From positions 1-64,000 of the forward strand of contig JAJFKB010000024.1 in assembly GCA_021773395.1 (NCBI GenBank): a stretch of 64,000 nt of DNA. Reading direction: 5' to 3'. Origin of the DNA: Gammaproteobacteria bacterium (lineage in GTDB: Bacteria > Pseudomonadota > Gammaproteobacteria > Pseudomonadales > IMCC2047). The notes beneath the pieces are model-generated. The model was not told the DNA's origin, ran no database searches, and saw only the letters and a list, made by a program, of their open reading frames with translations. The translations under genes and the position numbers were made by a program. Below, one piece after another: positions 2,980 to 42,554 of this stretch (the stretch's first letter is position 1; every line of letters begins with the position of its first letter).

Positions 2980-3043
2980 CTAACTTATTGATTTAATTGG
3001 TGGGTCGTCAGGGAATCGAACCCTGGACCTATGGATTAAGAGT
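2980..3043 (-). other. attL: displaced 3' part of tRNA-Lys(CTT)
   Basis: Bases 2,998-3,043 are the 3' 46 nt of tRNA-Lys(CTT), anticodon loop to CCA, on the minus strand. Matching continues into the flank, so 2,980-3,043 aligns with 42,491-42,554 without gaps and with five mismatches over 64 bases. The 3' acceptor strand ACGACCC pairs perfectly with the 5' strand GGGTCGT of the intact gene at 42,578-42,584. This suggests it is the original host 3' end, displaced by integration. Confidence 0.8.
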
Positions 3044-3212
3044 AAGCTCTGATAATTCATTATCTTTATTAATCAATGTGTTATGTGGACGTCCGTAGCA
3101 GCTTTTGTATAACTGAGTATAACGAAGTAGAACTCAAACACGTAAAAATCACGCACGTATAACCACTATTGAGTTCTATTTACATTAGTACCTTCTGAGG
3201 CCCACCCCTTTT

Positions 3213-4175
3213 TTACTGTGCAAAATCAATAATAGGAACCCAGTTTTCTGCCCAGGTGCGATTGGAACTTTCCCCCATGGCGGACAGAGATGTTGTCAGA
3301 AATTCAATGAACACCCTGACCTTGGCGGGTAAATAATCACGCTTTGGATAAATTGCAAACACGCCACTATCTGGTTGTAGAGGCCTGAAGTAAGGGTAGA
3401 GGGAAGCTAGGGCGCCACTGTTCAAGCCCTTTTTGGCAAGAAAGTGGGGTAATTGAGCAAAACCCAAACCATCGGCACACATATACGCCATCGCTTCGCC
3501 ATCATCGGTGATATGACTCCGTTCTAATTCACAGGGGAGATATTCACCTTTATCATCTGGCAAAAAAACAGGCTGTAGCTGTTGCGTCTCTTTGATACGG
3601 AAACCAATCCACTGATGCTGTTGAAAGTCTTCGGAACAACGCGGCGTTCCGTGTGCCTCCAGGTATTGCGGTGACGCACAGATGAAAAAATCCATTGGGC
3701 TGAGACGCCTGGCCACCAGACGACTGTCTTCCACGTAGCCTGTACGCAAGGCAACATCAATGTTGTTCTCAATAATATCCACGTGTAAATCATTGATCTC
3801 AAGCTCCAGTTTGATGGCCGGGTACTGTTGGCAAAATGCTCGTAACAAGGGGCGCAGATAGAGGTGGCCGTAGCAAACAGCCGAATTGATACGCAGGGTA
3901 CCGCTGGGAGAATCATTTAAATGCCTTAACTCGTCTTCGCAGGAGGAGAGGTCTTGAATCATCTTGCGCACGGTGTGGGCATAGCGCTTGCCTACCGCAG
4001 TAATGCGTAACTGTCGGGTCGAACGCTGGAAGAGAGTCAAACCCAGCTGAGCTTCCAGACGACCGATTGCCTTACTGACCGTGGATGGGTCTGTGTTACA
4101 CGTTCTTGCTGCTGCCGCGAAGCTGCCACCATCATAAGTGGCTAAAAATATTTTTAAAGACCGCAGTTTATCCAT
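3213..4175 (-). CDS. LysR-family transcriptional regulator
   Basis: About 320 residues. The N-terminal helix-turn-helix (MDKLRSLKIFLATYDGGSF, then a DPSTVSKAIGRLE recognition region) is followed by a LysR effector-binding domain. I take ATG 4175 as the start because MDKLRS is where such proteins usually begin; an in-frame ATG nine codons upstream also exists, and neither has a strong ribosome-binding site. The gene is transcribed away from the MFS gene at 4308, so it probably controls that transporter and the two small genes after it. The effector is unknown. Confidence 0.85.
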   Translation of the reverse strand: MDKLRSLKIFLATYDGGSFAAAARTCNTDPSTVSKAIGRLEAQLGLTLFQRSTRQLRITAVGKRYAHTVRKMIQDLSSCEDELRHLNDSPSGTLRINSAVCYGHLYLRPLLRAFCQQYPAIKLELEINDLHVDIIENNIDVALRTGYVEDSRLVARRLSPMDFFICASPQYLEAHGTPRCSEDFQQHQWIGFRIKETQQLQPVFLPDDKGEYLPCELERSHITDDGEAMAYMCADGLGFAQLPHFLAKKGLNSGALASLYPYFRPLQPDSGVFAIYPKRDYLPAKVRVFIEFLTTSLSAMGESSNRTWAENWVPIIDFAQ

Positions 4176-4307
4176 TGGCTGAGTATAACAAACGAAGATC
4201 ATGAATAATATTCACGACTCTTAGGGATGTCGGTCTATTTTTATATATTTTCAGCGCTATAAAATTCAACAACTGACGACAGACAACGTTACTTAAATAA
4301 GGCATTT

Positions 4308-5504
4308 TTGTTGAAACACTTTATATTGGAAAAAGTACCCGTCAATAGCCCCCTTGCCTACTTTTTCCTCGCTTTTATAGCCATGGCGGGCCTTTCTTAC
4401 ATTAACTTCTTACCGAGTGTCGTTAATGCGCTAGCAGGAGGTATCGGTTTCAGTGATGCTGAGGCGGGGCAGGTCGTTGCGATTAATGGCTATGGCGGTA
4501 TCGTGGGTAGTACCGGAGCTATTTTTTTAGTGCGTCGAATTCATTGGCAACGCGCCATGTTTGCGTTTTTAGCTGCGCTGACAGCCATTGACATAGGCAC
4601 TGTATGGATAGATGACTACAGTTTAATGCTTGGCTGGCGTTTTGTAGCTGGAACTGTAGGCGGGCTGTGTGTCGGTATTGCTTTTTCTGTGCTTGCCCGA
4701 TTAAACAATCCCGACCGAGCCTTTGGCCTCTTGTTGTTTGTGCAGTTTAGTATTGGATCCTTAGTCATTTACTTGTTGCCAGGGCTAGAAGCTCTACTTA
4801 GCGCGTATGCGGTTTTTTATGTTATGGCAAGCTTTGTATTGTTAAGCCTGGTTTTTCTGCTGTTTCTACCCTCTCGTCCTATAGACAGCAGGTCAACCAG
4901 ACAGTCTATACCTTTGTCCTGGCTACCTGGAAACACGCTGTTATTGTTGTTGGCCATCATATTCTATCAATGCGCCGCCAGTGCGATTTGGGCCTACGTG
5001 GGGCTCATCGGTCTCGGTGCTGGTTTTTCCGCTGAAAGTGTCAGTACGTATATCGCCACAACCGGGTTGTTAGGGCTGCCGGGTGCGATGTTGCCGGTGA
5101 TTAGCGGCAATCGTTTTGGTCGCTTGTATTGGGTTATAGCAGGTATTGCTCTGTCGATAACCGCTGCGGTACTGCTAAGTTTTTCACAACTTACCCCTCT
5201 TCTCTATGTTACCTCAATGGCCTTGCTGTTTTTTTCCTGGCCTGCGGTTCAGTCATATTTGTTAGCAGTAACGGCTGAGATGGACAATAGCGGGCGGCTT
5301 TCAACCATTGCAGCTGTTGTTGCCACTGTCGGTTTGGCGTCAGGGCCTCTGCTCGCTTCCAGCCTGCTGGATGATGGTAACTTTTCAGTGATGCTCTACA
5401 CCTGCGCCATGATTTTCTTATTGAGTTTTTTTCTACTATTCAAGCCTGTGCAGGCACAGAAAAAAGTGGGGGCAGTTGAATTGTCATTGCAATATCAATC
5501 CTGA
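4308..5504 (+). CDS. MFS transporter
   Basis: About 398 residues with roughly 12 hydrophobic segments, typical of the major facilitator superfamily. The first helix begins at about residue 16 (LAYFFLAFIAMAGL). There is no ATG before this helix, so the start must be TTG 4308 or the adjacent TTG 4311, with AAGG at 4299-4302 as ribosome-binding site. It resembles single-component MFS permeases of the YbfB type only loosely, and the substrate cannot be read from the sequence. It is divergent from the LysR gene and is followed at about 95 bp by the carboxymuconolactone-decarboxylase-like gene, suggesting a small inducible operon. Confidence 0.75.
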   Translation: MLKHFILEKVPVNSPLAYFFLAFIAMAGLSYINFLPSVVNALAGGIGFSDAEAGQVVAINGYGGIVGSTGAIFLVRRIHWQRAMFAFLAALTAIDIGTVWIDDYSLMLGWRFVAGTVGGLCVGIAFSVLARLNNPDRAFGLLLFVQFSIGSLVIYLLPGLEALLSAYAVFYVMASFVLLSLVFLLFLPSRPIDSRSTRQSIPLSWLPGNTLLLLLAIIFYQCAASAIWAYVGLIGLGAGFSAESVSTYIATTGLLGLPGAMLPVISGNRFGRLYWVIAGIALSITAAVLLSFSQLTPLLYVTSMALLFFSWPAVQSYLLAVTAEMDNSGRLSTIAAVVATVGLASGPLLASSLLDDGNFSVMLYTCAMIFLLSFFLLFKPVQAQKKVGAVELSLQYQS

Positions 5505-5599
5505 GGTCTACGAAATGGAGCATTGCTTGTCACAAAACTTTTCACAAAAGAATGCTCTGTTTCGCCTGAGGGTTACGTCAATAACTTAAGGTGAGAAAA

Positions 5600-6169
5600 A
5601 TGATTCGATATGTGTTCAACAAAATGCTGCTAGCGATGAAAAGACGTTACGATTACGACGTTCGTTATATGCAGGATATCCTGAAAACAGATCCAAGGGC
5701 GTTTTTAAAGTTTATGGGATTTCAAACTATGTCATCTCATTCGGGTAATTTGCCCGCCGGGCCGCTGTTTGCAGCCAGGGTACGCGCGATTATTTGGGAT
5801 GATTGCGGACCGTGCACACAATTGGTGGTTAATATGGCTTTGGAGGCAAAAATGAGCCCGGATATTGTGCGTGCGATTATTGATAGAGACTTGAGCAACC
5901 TGCCCGAGGACATCGCATTGGTGGTGCAGTTTACTGATCTTGTGTTGGCTCACAATCCTGAGGCGGATGATTTGCGTGAAAAAATACTAGGCTTATGGGG
6001 CAACAAAGGACTCATTGCGATTGCTTACAGCATCAGTTCCTGTCGAGTTTATCCTGCTCTGAAATATACCTTAGGATACGGTAAAGCCTGCAGCCGAATC
6101 AGAGTAAACGATTTATCTCTTGCGCCTAACCGGCAATCAGCATTAACCAGGAGGGCAGAGAATGTTTAA
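5600..6169 (+). CDS. Carboxymuconolactone decarboxylase/AhpD-like protein
   Basis: About 189 residues. The stretch ARVRAIIWDDCGPCTQLVVN (residues 59-78) is typical of the AhpD/CMD alpha-helical fold and carries a CxxC pair (C69, C72), the redox centre in peroxidase-type members. The ATG at 5600 is chosen because AAGGTG lies six to eleven bases upstream; an earlier GTG at 5591 overlaps that site. The stop overlaps the next gene by eight bases, so the two are probably translationally coupled. The C-terminal 30 residues are basic and unlike the family. It may act in thiol redox chemistry or as a decarboxylase; the sequence does not decide. Confidence 0.65.
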   Translation: MIRYVFNKMLLAMKRRYDYDVRYMQDILKTDPRAFLKFMGFQTMSSHSGNLPAGPLFAARVRAIIWDDCGPCTQLVVNMALEAKMSPDIVRAIIDRDLSNLPEDIALVVQFTDLVLAHNPEADDLREKILGLWGNKGLIAIAYSISSCRVYPALKYTLGYGKACSRIRVNDLSLAPNRQSALTRRAENV

Positions 6170-6578
6170 CCATACTATTTTTAACAACGTGGTCACCGGG
6201 GTAGCGATCCTGCTGGGATTAATAGCGTTAGGTAATGGCGTCTTTATGGCGGTCGCCCCTGAATCCTGGTATTGGCTGGTACCGGGCGTGCCAGACCGAG
6301 GGCCATTTAACCAGCATTTTGTACGGGATATTGGCATCAATTACATGTTGATAGGTGTGGCCTTTATTTATGGGTCTATTTACGCCAAGCATCGATTGCT
6401 GCTCTGGTTGGTGCCAACCGCTTGGCTGGTAGTTCACGCTATTTTCCATGTTTGGGAAGTTCTCGTTGGCATCTGTGGGCCCGAATCTCTGATTGTGGAT
6501 TTTGCCGGCGTGACATTACCTGCATTGTTGGGGCTGGGTTTGATCTATGGCCGCTATAGAGCTCAGGCGAGTGAATAA
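6162..6578 (+). CDS. Small integral membrane protein, unknown
   Basis: A 138-residue protein with about four hydrophobic segments (residues 10-30, 55-75, 80-100 and 112-130). No catalytic motif is seen. Its start overlaps the end of the AhpD-like gene by eight bases, so it belongs to the same short operon after the MFS gene. It could be an accessory membrane subunit, but I do not recognise the family. Confidence 0.6.
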   Translation: MFNHTIFNNVVTGVAILLGLIALGNGVFMAVAPESWYWLVPGVPDRGPFNQHFVRDIGINYMLIGVAFIYGSIYAKHRLLLWLVPTAWLVVHAIFHVWEVLVGICGPESLIVDFAGVTLPALLGLGLIYGRYRAQASE

Positions 6579-6824: not shown

Positions 6825-7945
6825 ATGAAAACATTGAAAGCACTACCGTCGGCAGTAAAACCTTTACTCGTTGGTGTTACGGCAATCTGTCTGACGATGA
6901 CTGCGGGGGTGGAGGTGTTTCTGGAAGAAATTATCGTTACCGCTCAAAAACGGACGGAAAACCTGCAGGAAGTGCCTGTATCGGTTATTGCTGGCGCAGA
7001 TATTCAAGCGCTTCGCTTGCGCGACGCGACAGACATTACGTCCCAAATTCAGAATCTGCAGTCAACAACGACAGCAGATAGTGGGTTCCCAACATTTTTA
7101 CTGCGTGGCGTAGCCATGAGTGACTTCAGCTTCAACCAGGCGAGTCCGGTTGCGACGTATATCGATGAAGTCTACAAAGGCAATCCCGCTTTGCAGGGCG
7201 TGTAGATTTTCGACCTGGAGCGAATTAAAATTCTGCGGGTCCCCAGGGAACCCTCTACGGCAAGAACTCAACTGGCGGTGCGGTCAATTTCATTTCCCTC
7301 AAACCGGCTTACGATACAATGAGTGCCGACTTTGCAGTGAGTTTCGAGAATTACAGCCAGAAGGAAGTGAGCGGTGCAGTTGGAACACCCATTCTGGAAG
7401 ATGTCCTGTCTGTGCGACTGGCCGGTACCTGGACAGAAGCAGACGGCTGGTTTGAAAACAAGCAACCCGGCCTGGATGATGGCAATGCGGTTGAGCAGTA
7501 CGGTGCACGCCTGACTGTCGCCTGGCAAGCAAGCGACACGCTGGAAGCTGTCCTTCGTTATACCCACACCGATAAGGACGCAGTGAACTACGGTATCCAG
7601 TCCCAATATTTCCGAAGCTGGAGTCGGTGGCGGTGCCTATGGGCTCTATAACGAGCTCGGTACGACAGCCCTCGTGGACTACCAGCGGGGAAACCTGGAT
7701 TACTTCGAATTTGAATCCGACCAGGACGAGCATAATGAGCTTTCGAATGACGCAGTCGCCTAGACTGTAAACTGGGACTTGAGCGACAGCTACACACTGA
7801 CGTCAATCACTTCGTGGGACGATGGGGGCATTACCAACCCGGAGGATTCAGATGGCTCACCACTGCATGTGATCAGGTCCCACTATTATGGTGAGGCAGA
7901 ACAATTAACCCAGGATCTGCGCATCACATCCACACGGCTGTTCTA
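6825..7945 (+). pseudogene. Decayed TonB-dependent receptor gene
   Basis: The start encodes a signal-like segment, then EEIIVTAQKRTENLQEVPVS, the normal opening of a TonB-dependent receptor plug domain (residues about 30-50). The frame is broken at least four times: TAG at 7,203, a shift near 7,240 (before a GTLYGKNSTGGAVNF segment), another near 7,605, and TAG at 7,761. Homology stops near 7,935, against the 3' end of the LysR gene. Roughly 370 codons of a protein usually of 700-800 residues remain, so most of the barrel is missing. It would have been an outer-membrane substrate receptor and cannot work now. Confidence 0.8.
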
Positions 7946-8860
7946 CTATTTTATATGATCACTAATCCTTGATTGGAGTAATTCTAGAAAAGCTTTCAAC
8001 GACCTCATCATTCCACGGTAAGCGGGGAAAACTGCCGTGATGTCACCCCAGTTATTACTCAAAGTGAATTCGTTTAATACATGGACGAGGCTCCCCTCCT
8101 TGACCCCGTGATCGCCAATAAATGTTGGAAGTTCCGCTATCCCACAGCCATAACGTGTTAGCTCGGCAAGAAATTCGAATTCACTCGCGTCGACCTTCGG
8201 AGACTGTTTCACTATCGCGACTTCGCCATCACATTCCATCTTCCACGTGATAGGTTTTCCATTGAGATGCGCAGCACACAGCGAGTGATGGCATAGTTCT
8301 TCCGGCGTAGATGGCGGCACATTTTTCTCTAAATAGACTGGAGCCGCGTAAAGCTTAGTCTTCATTTGGCCGAGCTTTCGGAATGCTAGGTTCGAGTCCT
8401 CCAGAGAACCTACACGTATGTCAACATCGATACCTTGCTCTATAAGATCAATACGGTATTGATTTAACTCGAGTTTCAGATTCACGTCGGGGTAAGCCGC
8501 TAGATACTCAGCAATAATGGGGGTTAAAACTATCCGGCCAAGCTCCACTGGTGCCGATATTCGAAGCTTCCCGCTTGGCTTTGCAGCCATTCCCATCAGC
8601 ACCGATGAGACCGCGTTTTGCTCTTCCATGATACGCTTGGCGTGGCGATAAAAGACTCCTCCCGCATCAGTGATGGCCACTACCCTGGTAGAACGGTTTA
8701 GTAAACTGACTCCTAGATGCTCCTCAAGACGCGCGACACGTCGACTTACAGTTGCCTGTGACATGGATAAACTTTTCGATGCTGCCGTAAATCCACCTAA
8801 ATCAACTACCTTGGCAAAAACAACGAGATCAGGCAGATCATCCACTAATAATTCATTCAT
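7946..8860 (-). CDS. LysR-family regulator (CrgA/DmlR-like)
   Basis: A 304-residue protein with an N-terminal helix-turn-helix (FTAASKSLSMSQATVSRRVA, about residues 24-43) and the substrate-binding fold seen in CrgA/DmlR-type LysR proteins. Start at ATG 8860. It is the LysR gene nearest to the catabolic operon, on the same strand about 750 bp beyond its last gene, with IS4 and aldolase relics between. It is therefore a candidate regulator of that operon, replacing the LysR gene usually found in aniline clusters, but this is inference from position only. Its 3' end abuts the truncated receptor gene. Confidence 0.85.
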   Translation of the reverse strand: MNELLVDDLPDLVVFAKVVDLGGFTAASKSLSMSQATVSRRVARLEEHLGVSLLNRSTRVVAITDAGGVFYRHAKRIMEEQNAVSSVLMGMAAKPSGKLRISAPVELGRIVLTPIIAEYLAAYPDVNLKLELNQYRIDLIEQGIDVDIRVGSLEDSNLAFRKLGQMKTKLYAAPVYLEKNVPPSTPEELCHHSLCAAHLNGKPITWKMECDGEVAIVKQSPKVDASEFEFLAELTRYGCGIAELPTFIGDHGVKEGSLVHVLNEFTLSNNWGDITAVFPAYRGMMRSLKAFLELLQSRISDHIK

Positions 8861-8973: not shown

Positions 8974-9250
8974 TCCCTCCGAGCTATACCTGGTGCCGAA
9001 AAAGTCTTGGTTTAAAGGGATTTTCTCGAACAGTGTGACTGAAAATACCTGTAATAAAGTGTAGAGCGAGATATCCAGATTGAAGCGCTTTTTGACGATG
9101 GCTACGAGCACGTACAGCGACACGGCAATCCAGATTTACACCTTCACGGCATTCTCTAACGTACCGTAAAGCTTTTTGATGCGAAGATGTTGTTTGATCC
9201 ATTTGAAAAATAATTCGATCTGTCAGCGGGCTTTGTACAGGTCGCTGGGG
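8974..9250 (-). pseudogene. IS4-family transposase relic (C-terminal part)
   Basis: Read on the minus strand, the translation contains IELFFKWIKQHLRIKKLYGT and later IWIAVSLYVLVAIVKKRFN, characteristic of the C-terminal half of IS4-family DDE transposases. The YREK signature (Y-x2-R-x3-E-x6-K) is recognisable. Two in-frame stops, one inside the YREK motif (after YKAR) and one after ENAVKV, show it is dead. The N-terminal half and both ends are missing. It lies directly beside a decayed aldolase fragment, which may mark an old transposition or deletion event. Confidence 0.75.
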
Positions 9251-9263
9251 GAGGACCAAACAG

Positions 9264-9566
9264 CCAGATTCAACACCCATACGATAAAGGGTGGCAACAA
9301 AGACTTCGAGAGGCGTCTAATCAGCTCCCGCACCTAACCGAGCAACCGAGCCATCAATTCTAACCGCACCTGCATCGATAGCAGCGAATGAATTATACTC
9401 CCATGCCTAAGTTATGGTGCCCGTGGAACGCCACTTCGGTTTTAGGTTTCCGTTCAGCACGTAGCAGCCCAATCTTTTCCATAACTTCATCCGGCAATAT
9501 GTACCCGGCCTAGCCGGTACAGTAAACGTAGTTGGCGCCGTAAGATTCCATCAGCCTGAGCCTGCG
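9264..9566 (-). pseudogene. Decayed duplicate of part of the 4-hydroxy-2-oxovalerate aldolase gene
   Basis: About 303 bases align without large gaps to 11,248-11,550, the interior of the intact aldolase gene, in the same orientation; by eye roughly five of six bases agree. Frame-breaking changes are present. The copy begins beside the IS4 relic and ends before the GST gene. It implies either a duplicated lower-pathway segment, since lost, or a relic of an earlier catabolic cluster replaced by the present one. Confidence 0.8.
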
Positions 9567-9612: not shown

Positions 9613-10251
9613 CTAAGTCTTTGGCTGAATAAAAGAGGTAGGGGAGGTATCGAGATAAGACCGCCGCAGTTTCATCTCACTAAACCAGCTGGCTATCTGA
9701 GGAAAATCCTGATAAACCGTTGCGCCGTAAACCTCGGCAACCCCAAAGCGCGGCAACAACGCACATTCGGCGGCGGAGAATGCTTCAGTGAAGTAAGATT
9801 TGTCGCCGAGCCATTCTTCCAGTTGTGCAAGGCAGTTTCGCCATGCCTTTTCGCTAGTGTTGATGACATCCCAATCCCATTCGACTTCAGGCTTAGAGCG
9901 TTTTTCAAATACCTGTCCACGTAATGCTGGGCCTACCACGGAATCGGAATAGCTGACTAGTAAACGCTGTTGGGAACGTTGCGCGGCTGATCCAGGATAG
10001 AGTTTCCCTGGGCCGTAGACATCATCCAGATACTCGAGAATCGTATTGGATTCCCAAATTACGCAATCTTTTTCATCAGAGCCGCCATCAATAAAAACCG
10101 GCACCGATCCTTTAGGATTAAGCCTAATAACTTCCGGGTGCTTTTCACCCAGCACGGTATCGACCAATTGATAATCAATCTGTAACTCAGCCAAAGCGAT
10201 GCGCACCTTCCAGCAGAAGGGGCAGTCGCTGCGGTGGTAGAGGGTAATCAT
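9613..10251 (-). CDS. Glutathione S-transferase-like protein
   Basis: A 212-residue protein with an N-terminal thioredoxin-like GST domain (LYHRSDCPFCWKVRIAL, CPFC at residues 9-12), a cis-proline region NPKGSVPVF and an ESNTILEYLDD segment that binds glutathione in the family, followed by a helical C-terminal domain. It starts seven bases after the isomerase-like gene and is the last gene of the catabolic block. The CPFC centre could support glutaredoxin-like or omega-class chemistry rather than simple conjugation. Its role in arylamine breakdown is unknown; detoxification of an electrophilic intermediate is the most natural guess. Confidence 0.75.
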   Translation of the reverse strand: MITLYHRSDCPFCWKVRIALAELQIDYQLVDTVLGEKHPEVIRLNPKGSVPVFIDGGSDEKDCVIWESNTILEYLDDVYGPGKLYPGSAAQRSQQRLLVSYSDSVVGPALRGQVFEKRSKPEVEWDWDVINTSEKAWRNCLAQLEEWLGDKSYFTEAFSAAECALLPRFGVAEVYGATVYQDFPQIASWFSEMKLRRSYLDTSPTSFIQPKT

Positions 10252-10258
10252 GCGGTTA

Positions 10259-10852: not shown

Positions 10853-10889
10853 AAACGCCTCAGAAAAAGTTATATCCATCAATCTCGCC

Positions 10890-10955
10890 CCTTCTCCCTT
10901 TGGAAGAAGGTTAGGATGAGGGCCTCACACCCTAGCCCTCTCCCAAAGGAGAGGG
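10890..10955. repeat. Pair of CCCTCTCC-type palindromes
   Basis: CCTTCT/AGAAGG (10,890-10,895 with 10,905-10,910) and CCCTCTCC/GGAGAGGG (10,936-10,943 with 10,948-10,955) form two hairpins. They resemble intergenic palindromes common in gammaproteobacteria. Between the aldolase and isomerase genes they could weaken transcription or shield the 3' end of the upstream message. Confidence 0.6.
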
Positions 10956-10976
10956 AATGAATAGCTAGTGGTGCAA

Positions 10977-12005: not shown

Positions 12006-12017
12006 GCTGTAACCCTC

Positions 12018-12926: not shown

Positions 12927-12957
12927 CGCTCAATCCCGCAGTTTCATCTGCCAGTTG

Positions 12958-13752: not shown

Positions 13753-13787
13753 TTAATTTCCAATATTCGTTAGTTTGGCTATGGGTT

Positions 13788-14570: not shown

Positions 14571-14585
14571 CGCTATTTAATCCTG

Positions 14586-15413: not shown

Positions 15414-15428
15414 CTGTCTCTCTGATAC

Positions 15429-31215: not shown

Positions 31216-31281
31216 ACCTTTCCCCCTAAGTTACAGTGGCATCTCAATTTCAATACTTGGAAATCCGGCCAACCACGTAAA

Positions 31282-31978: not shown

Positions 31979-32075
31979 GCGTTTCTCCGTCTATTTTTCT
32001 TTCCTATTCTTCCTTGTTTTGCGCTGTTTTCTCTATTTTTTGCTGTTTGCTTAGCGACTTCCACCAACGTAGACA

Positions 32076-32193: not shown

Positions 32194-32242
32194 TATTTTT
32201 AGGAGGCCATAATGGCTTCTGATAGATATTGGAGAATTATGT

Positions 32243-34487: not shown

Positions 34488-35477
34488 TCATGAAACCAAC
34501 GAATCTATCAAGCCACTTAACTCGATTCCTCAGTCATTACCTTGCATACCAGCGAAATTTAAGCCCGAATACGGTTAAAGCGTATCGTGATGTGTTTGTA
34601 TTGCTACTACGATTTTGCCGTGATGTGAAAGGTATTTCTATTGAAAGACTGCGACTAGAACAAATCGATGTTGAACTGGTTAATGAATTTCTAGACCATC
34701 TAAAGAAGGAACGCCACGGCTCTATCCGAACAGTCAACCAACGATTGGCGGTGTTGCATGCATTCTCTCGGTATATCCAAGTAGAGGAGCCATCACTCTT
34801 ACTGCAATCCCAACGCATACTCGCAATGCCACTACGTCGTTATATTCGAAATGAAGTAGCCTACCTGCCTAAAGATCACCTCGCCGTGCTTTTGGCTCAG
34901 CCAGATATCAAAAGGTCTCCTGGCAGGCGGGATGCCGTCCTATTGAGCGTGTTTTATGATACTGGGGCTCGCGTGCAAGAACTTATAGACATGACAGCCG
35001 GAGACATACGACTAGAGGCACCCGCTCAAGTTAGAATTTTAGGGAAGGGGCGTAAAATTCGGGTTGTTCCGATAATGGGTAATACGGTCAATTTATTGCA
35101 GCTGTTTTTACCTGAAAATAATCTAATGCTTCCTGAAAATTATGATCACCCTGTGTTTCGAAATAAGCACGGCAACAAATTGACGCGCATGGGTGCACCT
35201 TCAGGGCCTGCGACAGGAACATCCAGAGTTTAGACAAAAAGTTACCCCTCACACACTAAGACACACCAAAGCAATGCACCTAGTTCAAGGCGGTGTTTCT
35301 CTGGATATAATTCGTGATTTCTTAGGTCATGTGGATATCAAAACTACGGAAATCTATGCGAGAGCCAGCCTTGAAATGAAGCGGGCGGCATTAGAGAAGG
35401 TCAGTCCAGCGCCAATACCTAACATTCCATCGTGGAAGGAAAATAAATCATTGCTGCAATGGCTACAAGGTATATAA
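34484..35477 (+). pseudogene. ritC: RIT tyrosine recombinase, third gene, frameshifted
   Basis: The first 249 codons (34,484-35,233) contain the N-terminal domain and first catalytic Arg region (YDTGARVQELIDMT). The rest, with PHTLRHTKAMHLV, FLGHVD and TEIYARAS, lies in the next frame (35,193-35,477). The frames meet near 35,190, after KHGNKLTRMG, requiring a +1 shift. No slippery sequence typical of programmed frameshifting is obvious, so I read this as a mutation. Without the shift the protein lacks HxxR and the tyrosine nucleophile. Confidence 0.75.
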
Positions 35478-35545
35478 AGGAAATGGACTTCAAGAGCAGG
35501 ATACGCGATCCTCCTATGGTATCGAATAATAAAATGGATTCTGGA

Positions 35546-35962
35546 GGTAAGTGCTTGGCATAATATACGGTAGCTCAAACTCAAGACGATATATCTAGAT
35601 CTAATCTGACAGATGGATAGGCGCCACTGGGCTGACAGTACTGGAGAATAATAAGTAGAGCGAACCTTCAGCGCCTCCATAACCGGCGCAGCCTTTTTGC
35701 ATCCGGCACCGAGAGCGCTTAACAGTAGTAACTCAGGTTTTATGCTGTAACTCTAAGAAAAGAGTTTGGCTAATCTAACAGACGCTTCACGCCACAGAAC
35801 AGACATTAACGCCTGAAAAAGGGAGCGGCCTTCTTTGACTGGTTAGGTGTATGACACATAAAATTGCTCACGGTTGATACCGAATTCCACCATCGCCTCG
35901 GTGACGCCCCACTTTTCCACCTCTGAGCATCGAGGCAACTGCTCTAGCATACCAATCTTCTA
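35546..35962. other. Gene-free stretch between the RIT element and an IS3 fragment
   Basis: No reliable gene is seen. A 35-codon frame on the minus strand near 35,850-35,950 reads CSEVEKWGVTEAMVEFGINR and could be the tail of a lost gene, but I cannot name the family. The stretch probably consists of debris between mobile elements. Confidence 0.4.
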
Positions 35963-36213
35963 CCTGTATTAACTGGTCCAGTTTCAAAGTTAGTTTACTC
36001 AGCTTTTAGGTTGATTCGGTAATTCCTCGCTCGGCAGCAGCGTTTCTGGGGCTGGTGGTCGATATCCCAGCGAGCTATGCGGTCGTTCGGTGTTGTAAAA
36101 CACTCGCCATTGATCGATCAGCACCTGGGCTTCTCGAAGCGTGAAGAACAACTCCCCGTTCAGCAACTCATCCCTGAGTTTACCGTTGAATGATTCGCGG
36201 TAGCCTGTGACGC
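35963..36213 (-). mobile_element. IS3-family fragment (OrfB C-terminus and end), copy 1
   Basis: The minus strand encodes SFNGKLRDELLN, then QWRVFYNTERPHSSLGY and a stop, the C-terminal integrase-core end of an IS3-family OrfB. The element's end, CCTGTATTAACTGGTCCAG read on the plus strand, starts at 35,963. The upstream part of OrfB is missing. A shorter copy of the same end lies at 38,188. Confidence 0.8.
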
Positions 36214-36279
36214 ATAGCTGCTGATCTGACCCGCCTGGGCGAAACGGTACTGTCTTGCGACGGCTAAATGTTCTGCACC

Positions 36280-37299
36280 CTATTGCGTAACGATAATCTT
36301 ACCTCTGGCGTGGCCGGTTTCCAGGTGGCGGAAGGCGGCGGCTATTTCGTCTAGGGGGTAAACCGTATCGATAACCGATCGCATGGCGCCCGAATCGAGT
36401 AGTTCGCGGAACAGCTCCAGATCGCTGGGGGTTTGTTGGGCCATGAACACGGCGGCGCGGCGTGTTCCGACCTTGAAGGCTAAAAGCGCTTTTAACATGT
36501 GTGGCAAGGGTCCTAACACCCGGTCCTTTGGTGCGCCGACAGCAACGTAGCTGCCAGACGGCGAGAGGCAGCGTTTGTAATGGGATATCTTGCGATTGCC
36601 GATGTTATCGAGGATAAGGTCATACTCGATACCACGTGCGGTAAAGTCATCGGCTTTGTAGTCGACGACGTGATCGGCTCCGAGGTCCCGGACCATCTCA
36701 ACATTTTTTGTACTGCACACGCCGGTCACCTCGGCGCCGAAATGCTTGGCCAACTGCACCGCATACGTGCCGACGCCGCCAGAGGCCCCGTTAATGAGTA
36801 CGCGTTGCCCTTGTGTGAGACGTCCGTGGTCTCGCAGCCCCTGCACAGCGGTGAGTGCAGCGACAGGAACTGCTGCGGCCTCTTCGAACGAAATATTGGC
36901 TGGCTTGCGGACGAGCGTGTCGACTTTAACACTGGCGTATTCGGCGAATGCACCCGCTGCACAGCCGAACACTTCATCGCCTGCGGCGAATCTGGTGACG
37001 TTCTGGCCGACAGACTTAATCACGCCAGCCACGTCGAGACCGAGCAAGCTCGATTTAGGCGTACGCCATCCGCCCCCTAGGCGCATAAGCAGAGGCGTGC
37101 CCGTCATATTGTGCCAATCGTAGGGATTTACTGACGCTGCACGAACGGCAACCACGACTTCGTCGGGTCCGCACTGCGGACACTCAACCTCCTTCACCGT
37201 GAGAGCGTCAGCCGATCCGTATCGGTCGATGGTTGAGGCTCGCATGGTTGCTCCCGTGCGTGTTGAGCCCTGTTCTCCAGTGGATGTCTGCGCTGTCAT
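36280..37299 (-). CDS. Zinc-independent medium-chain oxidoreductase (quinone-reductase type)
   Basis: About 339 residues of the medium-chain dehydrogenase/reductase superfamily: GroES-like domain with AASVNPYDWHNMTG and GLDVAGVIKSVG, then a nucleotide-binding domain with INGASGGVGTYAVQLAK. There is no structural zinc loop, so a zinc-independent NAD(P)H:quinone or enal reductase is likeliest. ATG 37299 has GGAG six bases upstream. The gene is divergent from a TetR gene across two matched dyads and is GC-richer than its surroundings. IS3-family ends on both sides suggest it arrived as a cassette. Confidence 0.78.
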   Translation of the reverse strand: MTAQTSTGEQGSTRTGATMRASTIDRYGSADALTVKEVECPQCGPDEVVVAVRAASVNPYDWHNMTGTPLLMRLGGGWRTPKSSLLGLDVAGVIKSVGQNVTRFAAGDEVFGCAAGAFAEYASVKVDTLVRKPANISFEEAAAVPVAALTAVQGLRDHGRLTQGQRVLINGASGGVGTYAVQLAKHFGAEVTGVCSTKNVEMVRDLGADHVVDYKADDFTARGIEYDLILDNIGNRKISHYKRCLSPSGSYVAVGAPKDRVLGPLPHMLKALLAFKVGTRRAAVFMAQQTPSDLELFRELLDSGAMRSVIDTVYPLDEIAAAFRHLETGHARGKIIVTQ

Positions 37300-37331
37300 T
37301 ACTCTCTCCAAATCAGGCCGGTTTCTGCTAT

Positions 37332-37377
37332 ACGTACATTGTACGTTGCTTGACGTAGATTAACGTACGTAGTACGT
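37332..37377. promoter_or_regulatory. Two identical-type operators between oxidoreductase and TetR genes
   Basis: ACGTAC-ATT-GTACGT (37,332-37,346) and ACGTAC-GTA-GTACGT (37,363-37,377) are perfect dyads of the same form, with centres 31 bases apart, about three helical turns. They lie between the divergent starts at 37,299 and 37,410. They are the probable binding sites of the adjacent TetR protein, which would then repress both genes. Confidence 0.75.
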
Positions 37378-37409
37378 TTGTCAACCTTGATTTAACAATT
37401 TCACGGCAG

Positions 37410-38063
37410 ATGGCTACTCAATCACCAACCCCCGTTAAGCCCCTGGGCAAACAGCGCATACTTGAAGCCGCTATTGCCTACGCCGACGAGCATGGCGTCG
37501 ACGCGCTCACGATGCGCAGGATCGCAGGCAAGCTGGGGTGTGGCGTTATGTCGTTGTACAACCATGTCTCCAACAAGGAAGACATGCTCGTTGGCATGGT
37601 AGACATTGTTGCAGGCGAGATCGAGTTGCCCTCGGTCAATGGCGACTGGAAAGGTGCCTTGCGGGCCAGCGCGGCAAATGCCCATGAGGTTCTGTTGATG
37701 CACCAATGGGCACCCGCGCAGTGGTCGCTGCGCATGCCGGGCCCCGCACGCATCCGTTATATGGATTCGATTCTCCAGGTATTGACCGAAGCCGGGCTGG
37801 ATGCGAGGCTCGTTTACAGCGGCTATCATGCAGTAACAATGCACATCATCGGGTTCACGTTGCAGGAGATTGGCTACCTGCAAGTGCTTGACGCCGATTT
37901 CGACGAGTTGGCCAACAAATTTCTCAAAGACCTCTCCGGCGACTTCCCTTACATGGTTGATCACGTGCGCGCTCACATGGATGACAACTGTGACAGCGAC
38001 GAGTTTGGATTTGTACTCGACCTGATCCTTGATGGCCTTGAGCGTGTCAGCGTTACGTCTTGA
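37410..38063 (+). CDS. TetR-family repressor
   Basis: A 217-residue protein with an N-terminal TetR helix-turn-helix (RILEAAIAYADEHGVDALTM, then KLGCGVMSLYNHVSNKEDML, residues about 15-55) and a helical ligand-binding domain like that of TetR itself (TetR_C class). It should bind the twin ACGTAC-N3-GTACGT dyads upstream and control itself and the oxidoreductase gene. The ligand is unknown. Base composition is richer in GC than the neighbouring recombinase genes. Confidence 0.85.
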   Translation: MATQSPTPVKPLGKQRILEAAIAYADEHGVDALTMRRIAGKLGCGVMSLYNHVSNKEDMLVGMVDIVAGEIELPSVNGDWKGALRASAANAHEVLLMHQWAPAQWSLRMPGPARIRYMDSILQVLTEAGLDARLVYSGYHAVTMHIIGFTLQEIGYLQVLDADFDELANKFLKDLSGDFPYMVDHVRAHMDDNCDSDEFGFVLDLILDGLERVSVTS

Positions 38064-38187
38064 TCACCACAGCTTGTTCGCCAACCGGAACCGGCCGACC
38101 TGCATGCGTGGCGGCATATTCCTCGCCATCAATCAGTGAAGAGAACCAAAGGTTGGGGTATCCCGTATTGCGCAGAGCAATAACTTG

Positions 38188-38311
38188 CCTGTATTAACTG
38201 GTCCAGTTTCAAAGTTTGTTTACGCAGCTTTTGGCTGATTCGGTAATTCCTCGTTCGGCAGCAGCGTTTCTGGGGCTGGTGGCCGATTCCCCAGCGAGCT
38301 ATGCGGTCGTG
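38188..38311 (-). mobile_element. IS3-family fragment, copy 2
   Basis: The sequence repeats the end of copy 1 (35,963) in the same orientation, starting CCTGTATTAACTGGTCCAG and including the codons for RPHSSLGNRPPAPETLL. Similarity stops at about 38,311, where unrelated sequence is joined in frame. The fragment and copy 1 bracket the oxidoreductase/TetR pair. The stretch 38,064-38,187 and 38,312-38,746 contains no convincing gene. Confidence 0.75.
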
Positions 38312-38746
38312 TCCTTGATCGTACGGCCAGAAAGCGAAACGCCCGCGACGTCGCCACATACTCTTCTCCGCCATTTACCAATATCGGGTACTTTGGGCCG
38401 AGGGACACTTTCGCCTGGCGGACTTCAAGTTGCATCGTAAGTGACTCTGACACCTAACATTTGTATACCGCGCACGTTCTGTTAATTTATTCTTGTTATG
38501 CTGTATATATGCACAGATCGAGTTTGCAAAAAAGAGACCCTATGGCTAATGTCTCTTCCTAGGCGTTTTGAGTCCTTGGATCTCTTGAAAACTGCACGAT
38601 CAAATATAAACCCATTTGTCGAATTGTCAGTTTTGGTCTGAGCTTATAAAGCTTGGCCTAATGCATATTCGACACTTCAAACTATGCGACATGAAACGCC
38701 TAATCCTCCAGTATCTATCGACGGCTATTGTGGTGTCGTGAAGATT

Positions 38747-38840
38747 CTGGAAGTATTATGCAAAGTATTTTGGAGGTAATCATTTGATTTTATTGATAAT
38801 TAATATGGCTACTTTACATAAGCAGTTACGTACCTAAATA
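38747..38840 (-). repeat. Right site module, inverted partner of 32,100-32,193
   Basis: The decamer TTATGYAAAG occurs at 38,756-38,765 and, as complement, at 38,812-38,821. The 56-base offset between them equals that of the left module (32,119 and 32,175). The outer part overlaps the last codons of the integrase at 38,826 (AYLGT, stop). The imperfect dyad CTCCAAAATACTTTGCATAA, followed by TACTTCCAG, resembles a core recombination site. Confidence 0.6.
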
Positions 38841-39773
38841 GGCGGCAATCACGTCCAGCCTGCCATGACCCAATTCTTGGGAGAGTATGGCTCGCGCCTG
38901 TCGATCAACGGCTTTATCCGCCCGTCGACCCTGGGTAATGACGGGTGCCGGGTATCCGGTCAGCTGTTGATAACGCTCGCAGGCATAGGCGGCTCTCATA
39001 TCATGAAAGCCCTGAATGTCGGTATCTTTGGTAGCAGTGCGCCACTGGTAATAGGCTTGATCTCGCCATTGCACATAAGTCTTGTCTTCGGGTATCAAGT
39101 TCTTTTGGTATTTCGGTTGTCGTAGTGCTGCTTGCTTTAGTATGGCCAGATTCTCTTTGTTCACGGGTACCCACCGGTCAGCACCTTTTCCTCGCCCACC
39201 TTTGGTGCCTTGCGTGATATTAACCCGTCCCAAACGATTGGCCTGCCTTAAGGCTTTCCGGGCATCAAGCATCGAGGCTTCCTTAAACCGCAGGCCCAAG
39301 CTTCGGGTTAATTGCACCAGTATGGCAGTCCGTTCCTGACCGTTCTTGAGTAAGAGGTCGAGCGGAGTATTTAAAGCTTGTCTGTTCAGGGTGGCAGGAA
39401 CAGTCGAACGGACATGAGAACGGACACCCACCAAGTCGACCGGTGAGAGATGGAGCACTTCGTCTTTGCGCAGGGTCTCCACTATCACGTTGACCGTGGA
39501 GAGCAGGTTCTGGGCATAGGAAACACTCATCGCTTGACTGTTCACCTCGGTTTTTAACTGTTCTGCGTATTGATTGAGTAACGCTTTATCGATCTTTCTG
39601 GCATCGTTAATCCCTTCGCTTTTAAGATAATGGACAAATTGCTGCCAGCGTTCTTCATGGGTCGCTCGGGTACTGTAATGCCCTTCACCATATCGATCCT
39701 TCAGGGCACTTTTTCCTGCCCAGGCCAATTGTTTACCATATCCATAATTCCTGGTACCGCCGATCTTGCCCAT
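38826..39773 (-). CDS. Integrase of the Integrase_1 (PF12835-like) type
   Basis: A 315-residue integrase. The N-terminal half (HEERWQQFVHYLKSEGI onward) resembles the Phage_int_SAM_2 domain. The catalytic half shows Arg in RSLGLRFKEASMLD, DIQGFHDMRAAYACERYQ as the HxxR box, SQELGHGRLDVIAAYLG as the His/Tyr end. AGGG five bases before the ATG fits. It is a different lineage from the island integrase at 41,339 and the three RIT recombinases. Its 3' end overlaps a site module repeated 6.6 kb away, and it probably belonged to another small element now nested in the island. Confidence 0.78.
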   Translation of the reverse strand: MGKIGGTRNYGYGKQLAWAGKSALKDRYGEGHYSTRATHEERWQQFVHYLKSEGINDARKIDKALLNQYAEQLKTEVNSQAMSVSYAQNLLSTVNVIVETLRKDEVLHLSPVDLVGVRSHVRSTVPATLNRQALNTPLDLLLKNGQERTAILVQLTRSLGLRFKEASMLDARKALRQANRLGRVNITQGTKGGRGKGADRWVPVNKENLAILKQAALRQPKYQKNLIPEDKTYVQWRDQAYYQWRTATKDTDIQGFHDMRAAYACERYQQLTGYPAPVITQGRRADKAVDRQARAILSQELGHGRLDVIAAYLGT

Positions 39774-39846
39774 ATAACCCTGCTGTTGGTAAATGTTAAA
39801 ACCGGATAAGTACCGGTCGGACTTGACTGAGTCGCTCAGTCAGCGG

Positions 39847-40116
39847 CTATCTGTAAAAGACAGCATGGACAAACATGGCCACTGACTGCTTGGCACACCG
39901 GAACAGAGTATTCTCTGCGGGTTGTGTGCTGTGCCTCTCGTTAAAGCGAAATGACGCTTTGATCGAGGGCCGCAGTGGTGGTTTTTTCGGCGTTTGTATC
40001 AGCGGTGTTGCCGCTAATACCTTGATTTGACGAGCGATAGTGCGGGTACTACGTACCCGTCTCTGTGTAAAAACACCACAGAGACGGGTAGCACTATCCT
40101 CGTCTTTTTCTTTCAC
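39847..40116 (-). CDS. Small basic hypothetical protein
   Basis: An 89-residue basic protein starting at GTG 40116. The start is supported by a near-perfect ribosome-binding site, AGGAGGTGATC, nine bases upstream, the strongest in this part of the window. No domain is recognised. It lies 73 bases before the integrase gene on the same strand and may be co-transcribed. A complex dyad (40,036-40,098) lies within its early codons and may influence expression or be a DNA-level site. Confidence 0.45.
   Translation of the reverse strand: MKEKDEDSATRLCGVFTQRRVRSTRTIARQIKVLAATPLIQTPKKPPLRPSIKASFRFNERHSTQPAENTLFRCAKQSVAMFVHAVFYR
40036..40098. repeat. Compound dyad with competing hairpins
   Basis: TACCCGTCTCTGTG (40,054-40,067) pairs perfectly with CACAGAGACGGGTA (40,077-40,090). 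GATAGTGC (40,036-40,043) pairs with GCACTATC (40,091-40,098). Between them GGGTAC-TAC-GTACCC (40,044-40,058) forms a third hairpin that competes for GTACCC. Such mutually exclusive pairing is typical of attenuators or of recombination sites; which applies is open. Confidence 0.55.
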
Positions 40117-40602
40117 TGCTTAGATCACCTCCTGATTTTGGTTCGTGGTTAATGGGGTGGCTGTGCCTGGATCTTTAAGGGATCCTGGCGCGGCCGTTCT
40201 TTTAAGTGCTTCGTCATTGGTATGACTCCACACTTCTGCCTTTACCGGTCATGCATAAAGGGCCTTACTTTTGCGACTAGGTCTGCAGTCGCCACAGAGA
40301 TTACCGGCAATAAAACACAAGAGAGCAATCGGAAACAGCCTAAATCCCTTCACCCAGTGAAGAGGTTTTACGCTTGTTTATTGTGCTGGTCTGGTATAGG
40401 CGAAAGAGGCCATTGCTAAAACCACGACAGGCCTTGTAGAGATTATTGGTGGTTTTTACTTAGGCGGTGGGGAATGATCTTTTTATACAAAAAAAAGGCT
40501 GGTAATCACTGGCATGGATAGGAATTAAGAGGTGTTGCCAGTGGCAACGGGACTCTTCAATTTGTTACTGCGCACTGAAAAGTGCATTCTGTTGGGGGCG
40601 TA
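40117..40602. other. Gene-free stretch before the integrase region
   Basis: Only a weak 65-codon plus-strand frame (40,222-40,419) without a good ribosome-binding site is present, and I do not call it. No repeats of note were found apart from the leader of the preceding small gene. Confidence 0.4.
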
Positions 40603-41007
40603 CTAACGCGATAACCTAAAGATATCGACCTTCCAGCTTGCTTGATCACCGTCTTCTCCTTCTGGATCATCAAGCTTATCAATTTCATCAGCAATGATGT
40701 CGAGAAAATCCTCCAAGTAAAGCTTACGATCAGGTTCTATATCGTATTCATCGATGATGCCTGCGCCATTTTCCACCCGCACCGTACAGAGCCAATGTTG
40801 TTTGGATTGCAGGTACTGCTGAGGCAGCGGTTTGGTTGCAGAGGTTTCGCTGCTGATAGTACGGATTAGTCTTCGTTTCACAGGGGCAATGGATAATCGA
40901 TATAAAAGAATGGCGCTTAATAAACCAGGAAATGGGGTAGTCGTCAAATTTGCGAGGATAAGGGCGTCAACGAATAATGAGGTTTGTCTTCGCTGGCATT
41001 TACCCAT
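40603..41007 (-). CDS. Hypothetical acidic-tailed protein
   Basis: A 134-residue frame. The C-terminal 75 residues look like a real protein, with SKQHWLCTVRVENGAGIIDE followed by a strongly acidic tail. The N-terminal part is basic and hydrophobic and may be untranslated, but there is no internal Met to offer a better start. No family is recognised. It is divergent from the AlpA-like gene in the integration module, where small accessory genes are common. Confidence 0.4.
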   Translation of the reverse strand: MGKCQRRQTSLFVDALILANLTTTPFPGLLSAILLYRLSIAPVKRRLIRTISSETSATKPLPQQYLQSKQHWLCTVRVENGAGIIDEYDIEPDRKLYLEDFLDIIADEIDKLDDPEGEDGDQASWKVDIFRLSR

Positions 41008-41093
41008 TTCGACAATAGGGCATTAAAACTTCCTCTCGGTAGGAACGGTTTTAACCTTGTTAATGCTGCTTCACGGCATAACATTGTTAAGCG

Positions 41094-41477
41094 ATGGATA
41101 ACTCAAAACGAAAATTAGCCAAAACGGCTGTCATTCAACCCCGCTTGATTCGTTTGCGCGATGCGCCGATGTATGTCGGCATGGACAGACACCGCTTTAA
41201 TGAGGAAGTCAGGCCCAATGTGGTGGAAGTACCCATCGGAAAGCAAGGAATTGCCTTTGACCGGCTTGAAATTGATGCATGGGTGGAGCACTATATCTCG
41301 TGCTACGGACGTCCCAATCAAATGAAAGGAGAATTGATATGGGACAGAAGAAAACACCAGGGCTCGTCAAACGCGAAGGCATCTGGCACGTCGACAAAGT
41401 TATCGGCGGACGGAGAATTTGCAAAAGCACTGGAAGTGATTACCTTGAAGAGGCAGAAACTTACCTCGCACGATTGA
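41094..41477 (+). CDS. AlpA/excisionase-like DNA-binding protein
   Basis: A 127-residue protein. Residues 17-65, with RLIRLRDAPMYVGMDRHRFN and FDRLEIDAWVEHYI, resemble the winged-helix of AlpA/MerR-type excisionases, which bind near att sites and steer integrase toward excision. It overlaps the integrase start by 139 bases in another frame, so the last 45 residues may be non-essential or the genes tightly coupled. The position directly before the integrase supports the call. Confidence 0.6.
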   Translation: MDNSKRKLAKTAVIQPRLIRLRDAPMYVGMDRHRFNEEVRPNVVEVPIGKQGIAFDRLEIDAWVEHYISCYGRPNQMKGELIWDRRKHQGSSNAKASGTSTKLSADGEFAKALEVITLKRQKLTSHD

Positions 41478-42421
41478 GGGAAGAGATCCGGCAAGCAGAG
41501 GTTTACGGCGTACGCCCAAATAGGACTTTTCAGCAGGCGGCAGCAAAGTATGTTTTAGAAAACCAGCATAAGCGCAGCATCGCAAGCGATATCGGAAGAC
41601 TAAAACAACTGATGCCCTGGATTGGCTCATGCCCTTTGGCAAGACTTCATAGAGGTACGCTGGAATCTTGGGTTGAGCAAAGGAGAAAGGATGGCGTCTC
41701 CGTTGGAACGATCAACCACGGATTAAAGGTTGTTAGACGCATCATGAACCTCGCCGCATCGGAGTGGATGGACGGACATGGTTTGACTTGGATACAAACA
41801 GCGCCAAGGTTTAGGTTGCTGCCTGATCTGAACAAACGACAACCGTACCCACTGTCTTGGGAAGAGCAGGCGAAGCTGTTTAAATTACTGCCTGAGCATC
41901 TGGAAGCAATGGCATTATTCACGGTCAACACCGGCTGCAGAGACAGTGAGGTTTGTCATCTTCGGTGGGAATGGGAAGTGGTTGTGCCATCGATGAAGAC
42001 GTCAGTATTTATCATACCTGGTACGCAGGTGAAAAATACGGATGAACGTCTGGTGATCTTGAACTCAGTTGCACGATCGGTAATTTCCGCTCAGCGGGGA
42101 AAACATCCACAATACGTGTTTGTGTACCGAGGAAAGCCGATTCAGCATATGCTGAATAACGGCTGGCGCCAGGCCAGAGAAACGGTGGGATTAGCGCAGG
42201 TTCGGGTTCATGACTTGAAACATACTTTTGGTCGGCGCTTACGCGCTGCGGGAGTGAGTTTTGAGGATCGGCAGGACTTATTAGGTCACCGCTCTGCGCG
42301 TATTACGACGCACTACTCCGCTGCTGAGCTTTCCAGATTGATCGAGGCAGCTGAGACGGTATGCGAAAGAAACGGAAATAAACCGGAGTTGGTGGTTTTA
42401 CGGCGGCTAAATATAGCTTAA
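41339..42421 (+). CDS. Island tyrosine integrase
   Basis: About 360 residues. ATG 41339 is preceded by AAAGGA and begins MGQKKTPGLVKREGIWHVD, an arm-binding N-terminus. A core-binding domain follows (about 70-160), then the catalytic domain: Arg in NTGCRDSEVCHLR, HDLKHTFGRRLR in place of the usual HxxR (Lys instead of Arg at the fourth position), LGHRSARITTHYSAAE with the third-box His and Tyr. The gene ends 87 bases from the 3' end of the intact tRNA-Lys, the classic position for the integrase that made the island. It appears intact. Confidence 0.88.
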   Translation: MGQKKTPGLVKREGIWHVDKVIGGRRICKSTGSDYLEEAETYLARLREEIRQAEVYGVRPNRTFQQAAAKYVLENQHKRSIASDIGRLKQLMPWIGSCPLARLHRGTLESWVEQRRKDGVSVGTINHGLKVVRRIMNLAASEWMDGHGLTWIQTAPRFRLLPDLNKRQPYPLSWEEQAKLFKLLPEHLEAMALFTVNTGCRDSEVCHLRWEWEVVVPSMKTSVFIIPGTQVKNTDERLVILNSVARSVISAQRGKHPQYVFVYRGKPIQHMLNNGWRQARETVGLAQVRVHDLKHTFGRRLRAAGVSFEDRQDLLGHRSARITTHYSAAELSRLIEAAETVCERNGNKPELVVLRRLNIA

Positions 42422-42490
42422 ATACAGGCGAATTTACGTAAAATCACGCAAAACTCACGCAGGAGAAAGGAGGAAAAAGTTTTAACCGAG

Positions 42491-42554
42491 CTAACTCTTT
42501 GATTTAATTGGTGGGCCGTCAGGGATTCGAACCCTGGACCAATGGATTAAGAGT
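42491..42554 (-). other. attR: tRNA-Lys 3' half and flank at the integrase end
   Basis: This segment aligns gaplessly with 2,980-3,043. It includes the 3' half of the intact tRNA gene, which is probably supplied by the element: its G at tRNA position 69 makes a wobble pair with T4, while the displaced host copy has the Watson-Crick A. The crossover probably lies in or near the anticodon loop, where identity ends (GGATTAAGAGT). Confidence 0.75.

Follow-up and report, generated by a model that had tools for sequence, protein, structure and literature searches.

How did a complete arylamine degradation pathway come to lie between two copies of the 3' end of one transfer RNA (tRNA) gene? The question is raised by the first 64,000 bases (hereafter the window) of a 346,740-base contig (JAJFKB010000024.1, here C17) from a Gammaproteobacteria bacterium whose genome (GCA_021773395.1, here G000) comprises 3.80 Mb in 26 contigs. 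We put at roughly 0.8 the probability that positions 2998-42554 are an integrative element, some 39.5 kb long and inserted at the 3' end of tRNA-Lys(CTT), and that a second, smaller element occupies the same site.

The ends of the segment are marked by a repeat that includes part of the only tRNA gene found by ARAGORN in the window, tRNA-Lys(CTT). The gene is intact at the right end and a displaced copy of its 3' part (fragment 2) stands at the left end in the same orientation, with 43 of 46 positions identical, in agreement with the tRNA assignments of the original prediction. The gapless 64-base repeat with 59 matches (2980-3043 and 42491-42554) that it reported was recovered exactly, and a repeat finder gives a longer version of 81 nt with 88% identity (2963-3043 and 42474-42554). 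The repeat continues outside the tRNA gene with 28 of 35 nt matching, compared with 21 of 35 for the best other ungapped plus-strand 35-mer in the window. When 42400-42600 is searched against the whole genome, the left copy ranks second (E 1.5e-22).

The integrase next to the intact tRNA points at the tRNA 3' end, and its Phage_integrase domain confirms the tyrosine integrase that had been proposed there. A search of 342 genomes of the order (E 1e-40 or better) yielded 25 loci in 21 genomes, two of the loci in this genome. A tRNA gene follows the integrase end at a distance of 48-257 bp in 21 of these loci, and in every case its 3' end points towards the integrase (8 Lys, of which 1 CTT and 7 TTT, 5 Met, 5 Arg, and 1 each Ala, Pro and Phe). 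The loci without a tRNA are L143, L148 (where the contig ends), L159 and L163; a contrast set of 15 stretches from relatives (13 around metZ, 2 around a patatin gene) contained none. The segment thus holds an internal tyrosine integrase of a tRNA-using kind, and this habit, together with the repeat copies, gives good support to the earlier proposal of integration at the tRNA-Lys 3' end. Among phages, 40 of 50,697 records match the integrase, all below 60% identity (eight listed at 44.1-46.7%), and among plasmids 12 of 72,556. A small gene next to the integrase, possibly encoding an excisionase, has homologues at 21 of the 25 loci, both loci of this genome included (tblastn). The original prediction rightly placed a gene here and called it AlpA-like; we dropped AlpA as a firm name, as no Pfam family matches at E 0.001, Phage_AlpA stays below threshold (E 0.17) and the gene matches phrog_13517.

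The target gene itself may carry a trace of the event. In the acceptor stem of the intact tRNA, T4 forms a wobble pair with G69, and both displaced copies of the 3' end in this genome (fragment 2 and a further one described below) have A69. A class-wide search gave tRNA-Lys matches in 70 of 369 genomes, and among 24 loci fetched besides this one G69 is present in 22 and A69 in 2, both with T4. The wobble is consistent with, but no proof of, the joining of a host 5' part and an island-supplied 3' part. Matches to tRNA-Lys occur in 33 of 37 relatives, the matched gene being TTT at all 29 fetched loci, and CTT is present at 10 of the 24 loci of the class sample, with tRNA-His nearby in 9 of those 10. 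Unlike these, tRNA-Lys(CTT) is solitary within the window here and may have moved to its present site. The features of the window are collected in the table.

Features of the window around the tRNA-Lys(CTT) island (att, attachment; IS, insertion sequence; ORF, open reading frame; MITE, miniature inverted-repeat transposable element)
Feature	Position	Strand	Basis or remark
Probable right part of second, smaller element (E1)	1-2997		Low GC; ends at tRNA-Lys fragment
IS3-type element end	about 1-141		Type read by eye
Displaced tRNA-Lys(CTT) 3' end (fragment 2), left att site	2998-3043	-	93% to tRNA positions 31-76
Arm-like motif, left end	3140-3155	+	ACGTAAA-N(0-3)-TCACGCA
LysR regulator	3213-4202	-	Pfam
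MFS transporter	4308-5504	+	Pfam
Two ORFs without match above cut-off	5591-6169, 6162-6578		Pfam
LysR regulator 2	7946-8860	-	Pfam
GST gene	9613-10251	-	Pfam
DSBA-type gene	10259-10882	-	Pfam
Catechol meta-cleavage genes	10977-18286	-	NCBIfam, Pfam, position
Arylamine genes of tdnQ, T, A1, A2, B type and ferredoxin	18335-24065	-	pNB8c similarity and order; Pfam
Block of four: DUF1329-type, DUF1302, RND/MMPL, YCF48-type	24297-31215	-	Pfam
Three adjacent tyrosine recombinase genes (RIT type)	32243-35477	+	Phage_integrase in all three
ADH gene	36280-37311	-	Pfam
TetR gene	37410-38063	+	Pfam
Second, unrelated recombinase (Integrase_1)	38826-39773	-	Pfam PF12835
Small gene next to integrase, possible excisionase	41094-41477	+	phrog_13517, function unknown; role inferred
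Phage-type tyrosine integrase	41279-42421	+	Phage_integrase (Pfam), PHROG phrog_1; start probably near 41339
Arm-like motif, right end, with paired CACGCA	42436-42461	+	Pattern at 42436-42450
Intact tRNA-Lys(CTT)	42509-42584	-	ARAGORN; 3' part 42509-42554 is right att site
MITE-like small inverted-repeat element between tRNA and metZ	42664-42802		Ends by script
metZ, start of chromosomal flank	42832-44037	-	84% homologue in G001; gene name from original prediction

What lies to the left of the island? The original prediction treated the sequence left of 2,980 as chromosome, and expected it to join metZ and tRNA-Lys directly in relatives without the island. This expectation fails in G001, a genome of the same genus, in which the genes directly beside metZ (84%) are instead homologues of a gst gene (75%) and an FAD monooxygenase gene (59%) found on contig C12 of our genome, in matching order and orientation. 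On C12 these counterparts lie about 3.8 kb before a third tRNA-Lys 3' fragment (fragment 1, C12:383330-383375), which is 4 kb from the contig end and identical to fragment 2 over 46 of 46 nt. The guanine-plus-cytosine (GC) content is 38.5% over 1-2962 and 47.8% right of the island. On the grounds of the third fragment and the G001 synteny we reject a chromosomal flank left of 2,980, where instead a second element most likely ends.

Ends of C15 and C16 repeat the final 139 bases of C12, and ends of C19 and C9 repeat bases 2-141 of C17. Each sequence is thus present at three contig ends (the first 140 bases in the case of C17), a pattern that an IS copy breaking up the assembly would produce. 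To the eye, the C12 and C17 end sequences form the two ends of one IS3-type unit, and their orientations match. Read most simply, C12 and C17 are probably neighbours, with two elements in a row at the tRNA-Lys site. Each element is accompanied by a fragment and an integrase, the one on C12 for fragment 1 and that at 41279-42421 for fragment 2. Across the contig gap, contiguity of this array is suggested by the G001 synteny and the matching contig ends.

The smaller element has a mixed history. Beyond fragment 1, C12 encodes an integrase with an Arm-DNA-bind_3 domain, which we take to be of P4 type, and then a Phage_GPA gene. Relatives of this integrase were matched in 9 of 294 genomes, this one included; of eight loci fetched and read by eye, four have the integrase beside tRNA-Leu-like ends (L207, L208, L210, L214), three beside other tRNA-like ends (L211-L213), and at L209 none was seen. 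The window contains at 2852-2914 a tRNA-Leu(TAA) fragment, 94% identical over 63 nt to the intact gene on C20 and flanked on the right, and by eye also on the left, by GTCTAC-type motifs. In view of the tRNA-Leu-like relatives and this fragment, the C12 integrase is only a candidate for having placed the small element. A 19-mer common to C12 (L009:13504) and window position 2933 may mark the two ends of a single element; a 12-mer shared by these ends arises in 12 of 1000 simple shuffles, but similar motifs lie beside tRNA-Leu-like ends in relatives. The small element also holds two low-GC ORFs (468-1541 and 2166-2693), neither with a Pfam or PHROG match, the latter with a weak PADLOC match (E 0.0075).

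The whole aniline and meta-cleavage cluster (9613-24065) lies between the two tRNA-Lys copies. Q, T, A1, A2 and B genes of tdn type are present in order, and this order is shared with plasmid pNB8c (Q 74%, T 55%, A1 71%, A2 58% and reductase 60% identity); Pfam recognizes GATase and Fer2 domains among them. The meta-cleavage set consists of an aldolase, an acylating acetaldehyde dehydrogenase, a decarboxylase, a hydratase, a hydrolase, a hydroxymuconic semialdehyde dehydrogenase, an HbpS-like protein (Pfam) and a catechol 2,3-dioxygenase. Five of these, the aldolase, the acetaldehyde dehydrogenase, the decarboxylase, the semialdehyde dehydrogenase and the catechol 2,3-dioxygenase, score above NCBIfam cut-offs (TIGR03217, TIGR03215, TIGR03218, TIGR03216, TIGR03211); the arylamine dioxygenase subunits, the reductase, Q and the hydrolase match below cut-off only, the dioxygenase models being those of other dioxygenases. 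Hydrolase and hydratase (13788-14570, outside the family scan) are names presumed from position; the hydratase is 39% identical to the decarboxylase. A remnant of a second 4-hydroxy-2-oxovalerate aldolase gene is visible at 9209-9566, 67-79% identical to the intact copy at 10977-12005.

The Q, T, A1, A2 and B products would convert an arylamine to catechol, which the meta-cleavage enzymes would process further to complete the route. The closest solved structure is 8wwu (E 7.5e-202), presumably the naphthylamine enzyme NpaA1 described in PMC11335346. Because two Q enzymes that are 90% identical are reported in that paper to differ in substrate, the sequence supports "arylamine" at most. Within the order, tdnQ was detected at E 1e-150 in 2 of 391 genomes, this one and one at 60% identity. 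A pattern search of genome_contigs returned 43 loci: 15, including a partial one, have 71-78% identity and are mostly betaproteobacterial, and 28 have 43-48%. Among plasmids, 42 of 72,556 records reach E 1e-100, with 60-80% identity in 18.

By its gene content the cargo as a whole is a mosaic of aniline and meta-cleavage genes, a four-gene block, a recombinase trio and IS remnants. In the block, the first gene is called DUF1329-type here, and Pfam gives LolA_like. The trio consists of three adjacent, overlapping recombinase genes, as in RIT elements, the third broken by a frame change near 35,200. The ADH/TetR unit (35947-38310; GC 55.4% over 35941-38310) is framed by direct repeats D3 and D5 (35947-36086 and 38172-38310), whose translations read as transposase C-terminal ends. 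A 153-nt inverted repeat (32100-32252 and 38688-38840, 73%) has one arm just before the trio and the other overlapping the 3' end of the unrelated recombinase gene at 38826-39773. Near the left end, 6825-7651 is a TonB-receptor-like remnant, with a short ORF giving a weak Plug match below cut-off followed by other frames. Compared with three other genomes (G001-G003), 30200-50199 gave 23 matches: 1 in the island (the four-gene block), 4 in the tRNA stretch, 7 in the MITE-like repeat (6 in G001, 1 in G003) and 11 in the flank.

Is this element mobile by its own means? No relaxase or mating-pair genes are present among the island ORFs scanned (ORFs below 90 amino acids, some overlapping ORFs and 13788-14570 lay outside the scan), so that the gene set of an integrative and conjugative element is not seen among them. 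No phage structural genes were identified, PHROGs having been run on five island ORFs only. The statement of the original prediction that the pathway sits on a mobile unit therefore holds for its place inside the att sites, with mobility as a prediction. With no transfer genes identified, the island would need excision and a helper to move.

Taken together, we propose that the phage-type tyrosine integrase at the right end drove entry into the tRNA-Lys(CTT) 3' end. The crossover would have joined the element's own tRNA 3' part to the host 5' part, keeping the tRNA whole, and would have displaced the former 3' end to 2998-3043. At the same site, C12:383376-387421 and window 1-2997, with the IS3-type element between them, would form the small element. 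The array would run from the chromosome through fragment 1, the small element, fragment 2, the catabolic island and the intact tRNA-Lys to metZ. The cargo would include a complete tdn-type route from arylamine via catechol to central metabolism, along with an envelope/RND block that is present elsewhere in the genus as well.

Several observations weigh against this proposal. An empty site was not seen: neither the aniline genes nor the integrase were found in G001 at the thresholds used, but G001 has no tRNA-Lys at the metZ junction, its locus is otherwise rearranged and the genome is 83% complete. In our genome, extra genes separate the FAD monooxygenase from fragment 1 (an unassigned gene, a patatin-like gene, a helix-turn-helix remnant and an unassigned ORF), and the patatin-like gene, named by eye, has its G001 homologue on another contig. 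The relatives of the C12 integrase that lie beside tRNA-Leu-like ends rather than tRNA-Lys count here too, and T4 with G69 also occurs naturally, in 2 of the 24 fetched tRNA-Lys genes. The aniline, block and end parts have 47.4-49.9% GC, like the flank at 47.8%, and GC content was rejected as an island marker. Finally, the arm-like motif is supporting evidence only: its pattern, with 2 sites in the window and 0 in 100 shuffles, was picked after inspecting the ends, and a 10-mer common to both 300-base ends arises in 67 of 1000 simple shuffles. In its paired form (CACGCA or CCCGCA twice), the motif stands after the integrase at 10 of the 25 loci, with 0.0 expected from simple shuffles, which suggests a family-wide arm site; the left end of the island has the single form only.

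Could the boundaries be drawn differently? One larger island might have fragment 1 on C12 and the intact tRNA as its ends, with fragment 2 an older internal scar and the 39.5 kb no unit of its own. The identity of fragments 1 and 2 over 46 nt would fit this, as would the uncertain att sites of the small element, whose integrase clade is found beside tRNA-Leu-like ends in four of eight loci, and the mixed history implied by the tRNA-Leu(TAA) fragment near its right end. We nevertheless regard it as unlikely, since the 35 nt beside the intact tRNA match the flank of fragment 2 at 28 positions and that of fragment 1 at only 17, and an arm-like motif lies just inside fragment 2, where a 39.5-kb unit should end. 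That the left copy arose by chance or duplication without any integration is very improbable: tRNA-Lys is indeed absent from the G001 junction in a rearranged locus, but the two displaced copies share their orientation and each is a 3' end, and the adjacent integrase is from a family with a tRNA 3' end beside it at 21 of 25 loci.

Improbable, too, is the arrival of the whole 39.5 kb in one step from a distant donor, as the original prediction had implied. The rarity of tdnQ in the order and the mostly betaproteobacterial origin of the 15 closest loci would favour such a transfer. The four-gene block speaks against it, since 24293-31218 has a homologue at 76.8% DNA identity in the same genus (G001:C139:7848-14786, L216), its RND protein being 83% identical and thus comparable to metZ at 84%, and since the stretches retrieved around the aniline genes at L096-L109 showed no such block. 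Recombinase and transposase remnants between the cargo parts likewise speak against a single step. The same G001 homologue also bears on integration itself, as it lies away from any tRNA-Lys repeat (no match on G001:C139 by blastn, E 1e-3), preceded by what look by eye like trp and PEP synthase genes and followed by an apparent transposase remnant. The original prediction had named relatives keeping the segment without flanking repeats as the telling counterexample; G001 provides this for the 7-kb block only, and no relative with the same 39.5-kb unit was found.

Returning to the 39.5-kb integrative element, how does it compare with known systems? The Islander catalogue reports 3919 islands, 3760 of them with a 3' fragment, and 125 tandems (PMC4383910). 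Our island resembles the islands described there in its intact tRNA, opposite same-orientation 3' fragment and internal tyrosine integrase, and the array resembles their tandems in having a fragment and integrase per member; it differs in that one member can be placed only across a contig gap and has an integrase whose clade is elsewhere found beside tRNA-Leu-like ends. Aniline operons of tdn/dca type have been described on plasmids such as pNB8c (PMC7494797) and, beside transposases, on the chromosome of P. putida DPA1 (PMC5897751). Despite the shared gene order and 55-74% identity to pNB8c, the island is chromosomal and bounded by att sites, and ferredoxin and meta-cleavage genes follow on the same strand, whereas in pNB8c a LysR gene and IS elements come after Q-T-A1-A2-B. 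RIT elements are described as about 3.5 kb long with three adjacent overlapping tyrosine recombinase genes, and about 68% of 19 chromosomal cases lie on predicted islands (PMC3414803); the trio here spans about 3.2 kb and differs in its broken third gene. Similar to our module, Pseudomonas phage phiPSA1 has a 44.1% identical integrase with a small gene overlapping its start upstream; in contrast to the phage, no phage structural gene was identified among the five island ORFs compared with PHROGs. At title and abstract level, none of the open-licence papers listed by our searches describes an aniline island at a tRNA gene.

A second probable island occurs in the same genome at C2:324112-346615 (L006, L004, L162, L175), where an integrase 46% identical to that of the catabolic island (C2:345331-346485) lies beside tRNA-Lys(TTT) (C2:346540-346615), and a fragment resembling tRNA-Lys(TTT) is found 22 kb further left; its left part (L175) encodes, by eye, oxidoreductases, a TonB receptor and regulators. 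Both the CTT and the TTT tRNA-Lys genes thus have such an integrase adjacent and a displaced fragment leftward. It is a tentative and rather doubtful extension that the lineage recurrently acquires catabolic islands without transfer genes of their own, through phage-type integrases that repeatedly enter tRNA-Lys, and that tRNA-Lys(CTT) itself was possibly borne by an element.

In conclusion, the setting is new but the kind of gene mobility is not, as islands at tRNA 3' ends and their tandem arrays are already catalogued (PMC4383910). For an arylamine pathway of a type previously known from plasmids and transposon-flanked operons, exact ends, a likely crossover region and a predicted excision product can now be given. 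The apparent left flank is probably itself an inserted element, which changes how the empty site should be expected to look, and the T4-G69 wobble may be a small record of the replacement of the tRNA 3' half.

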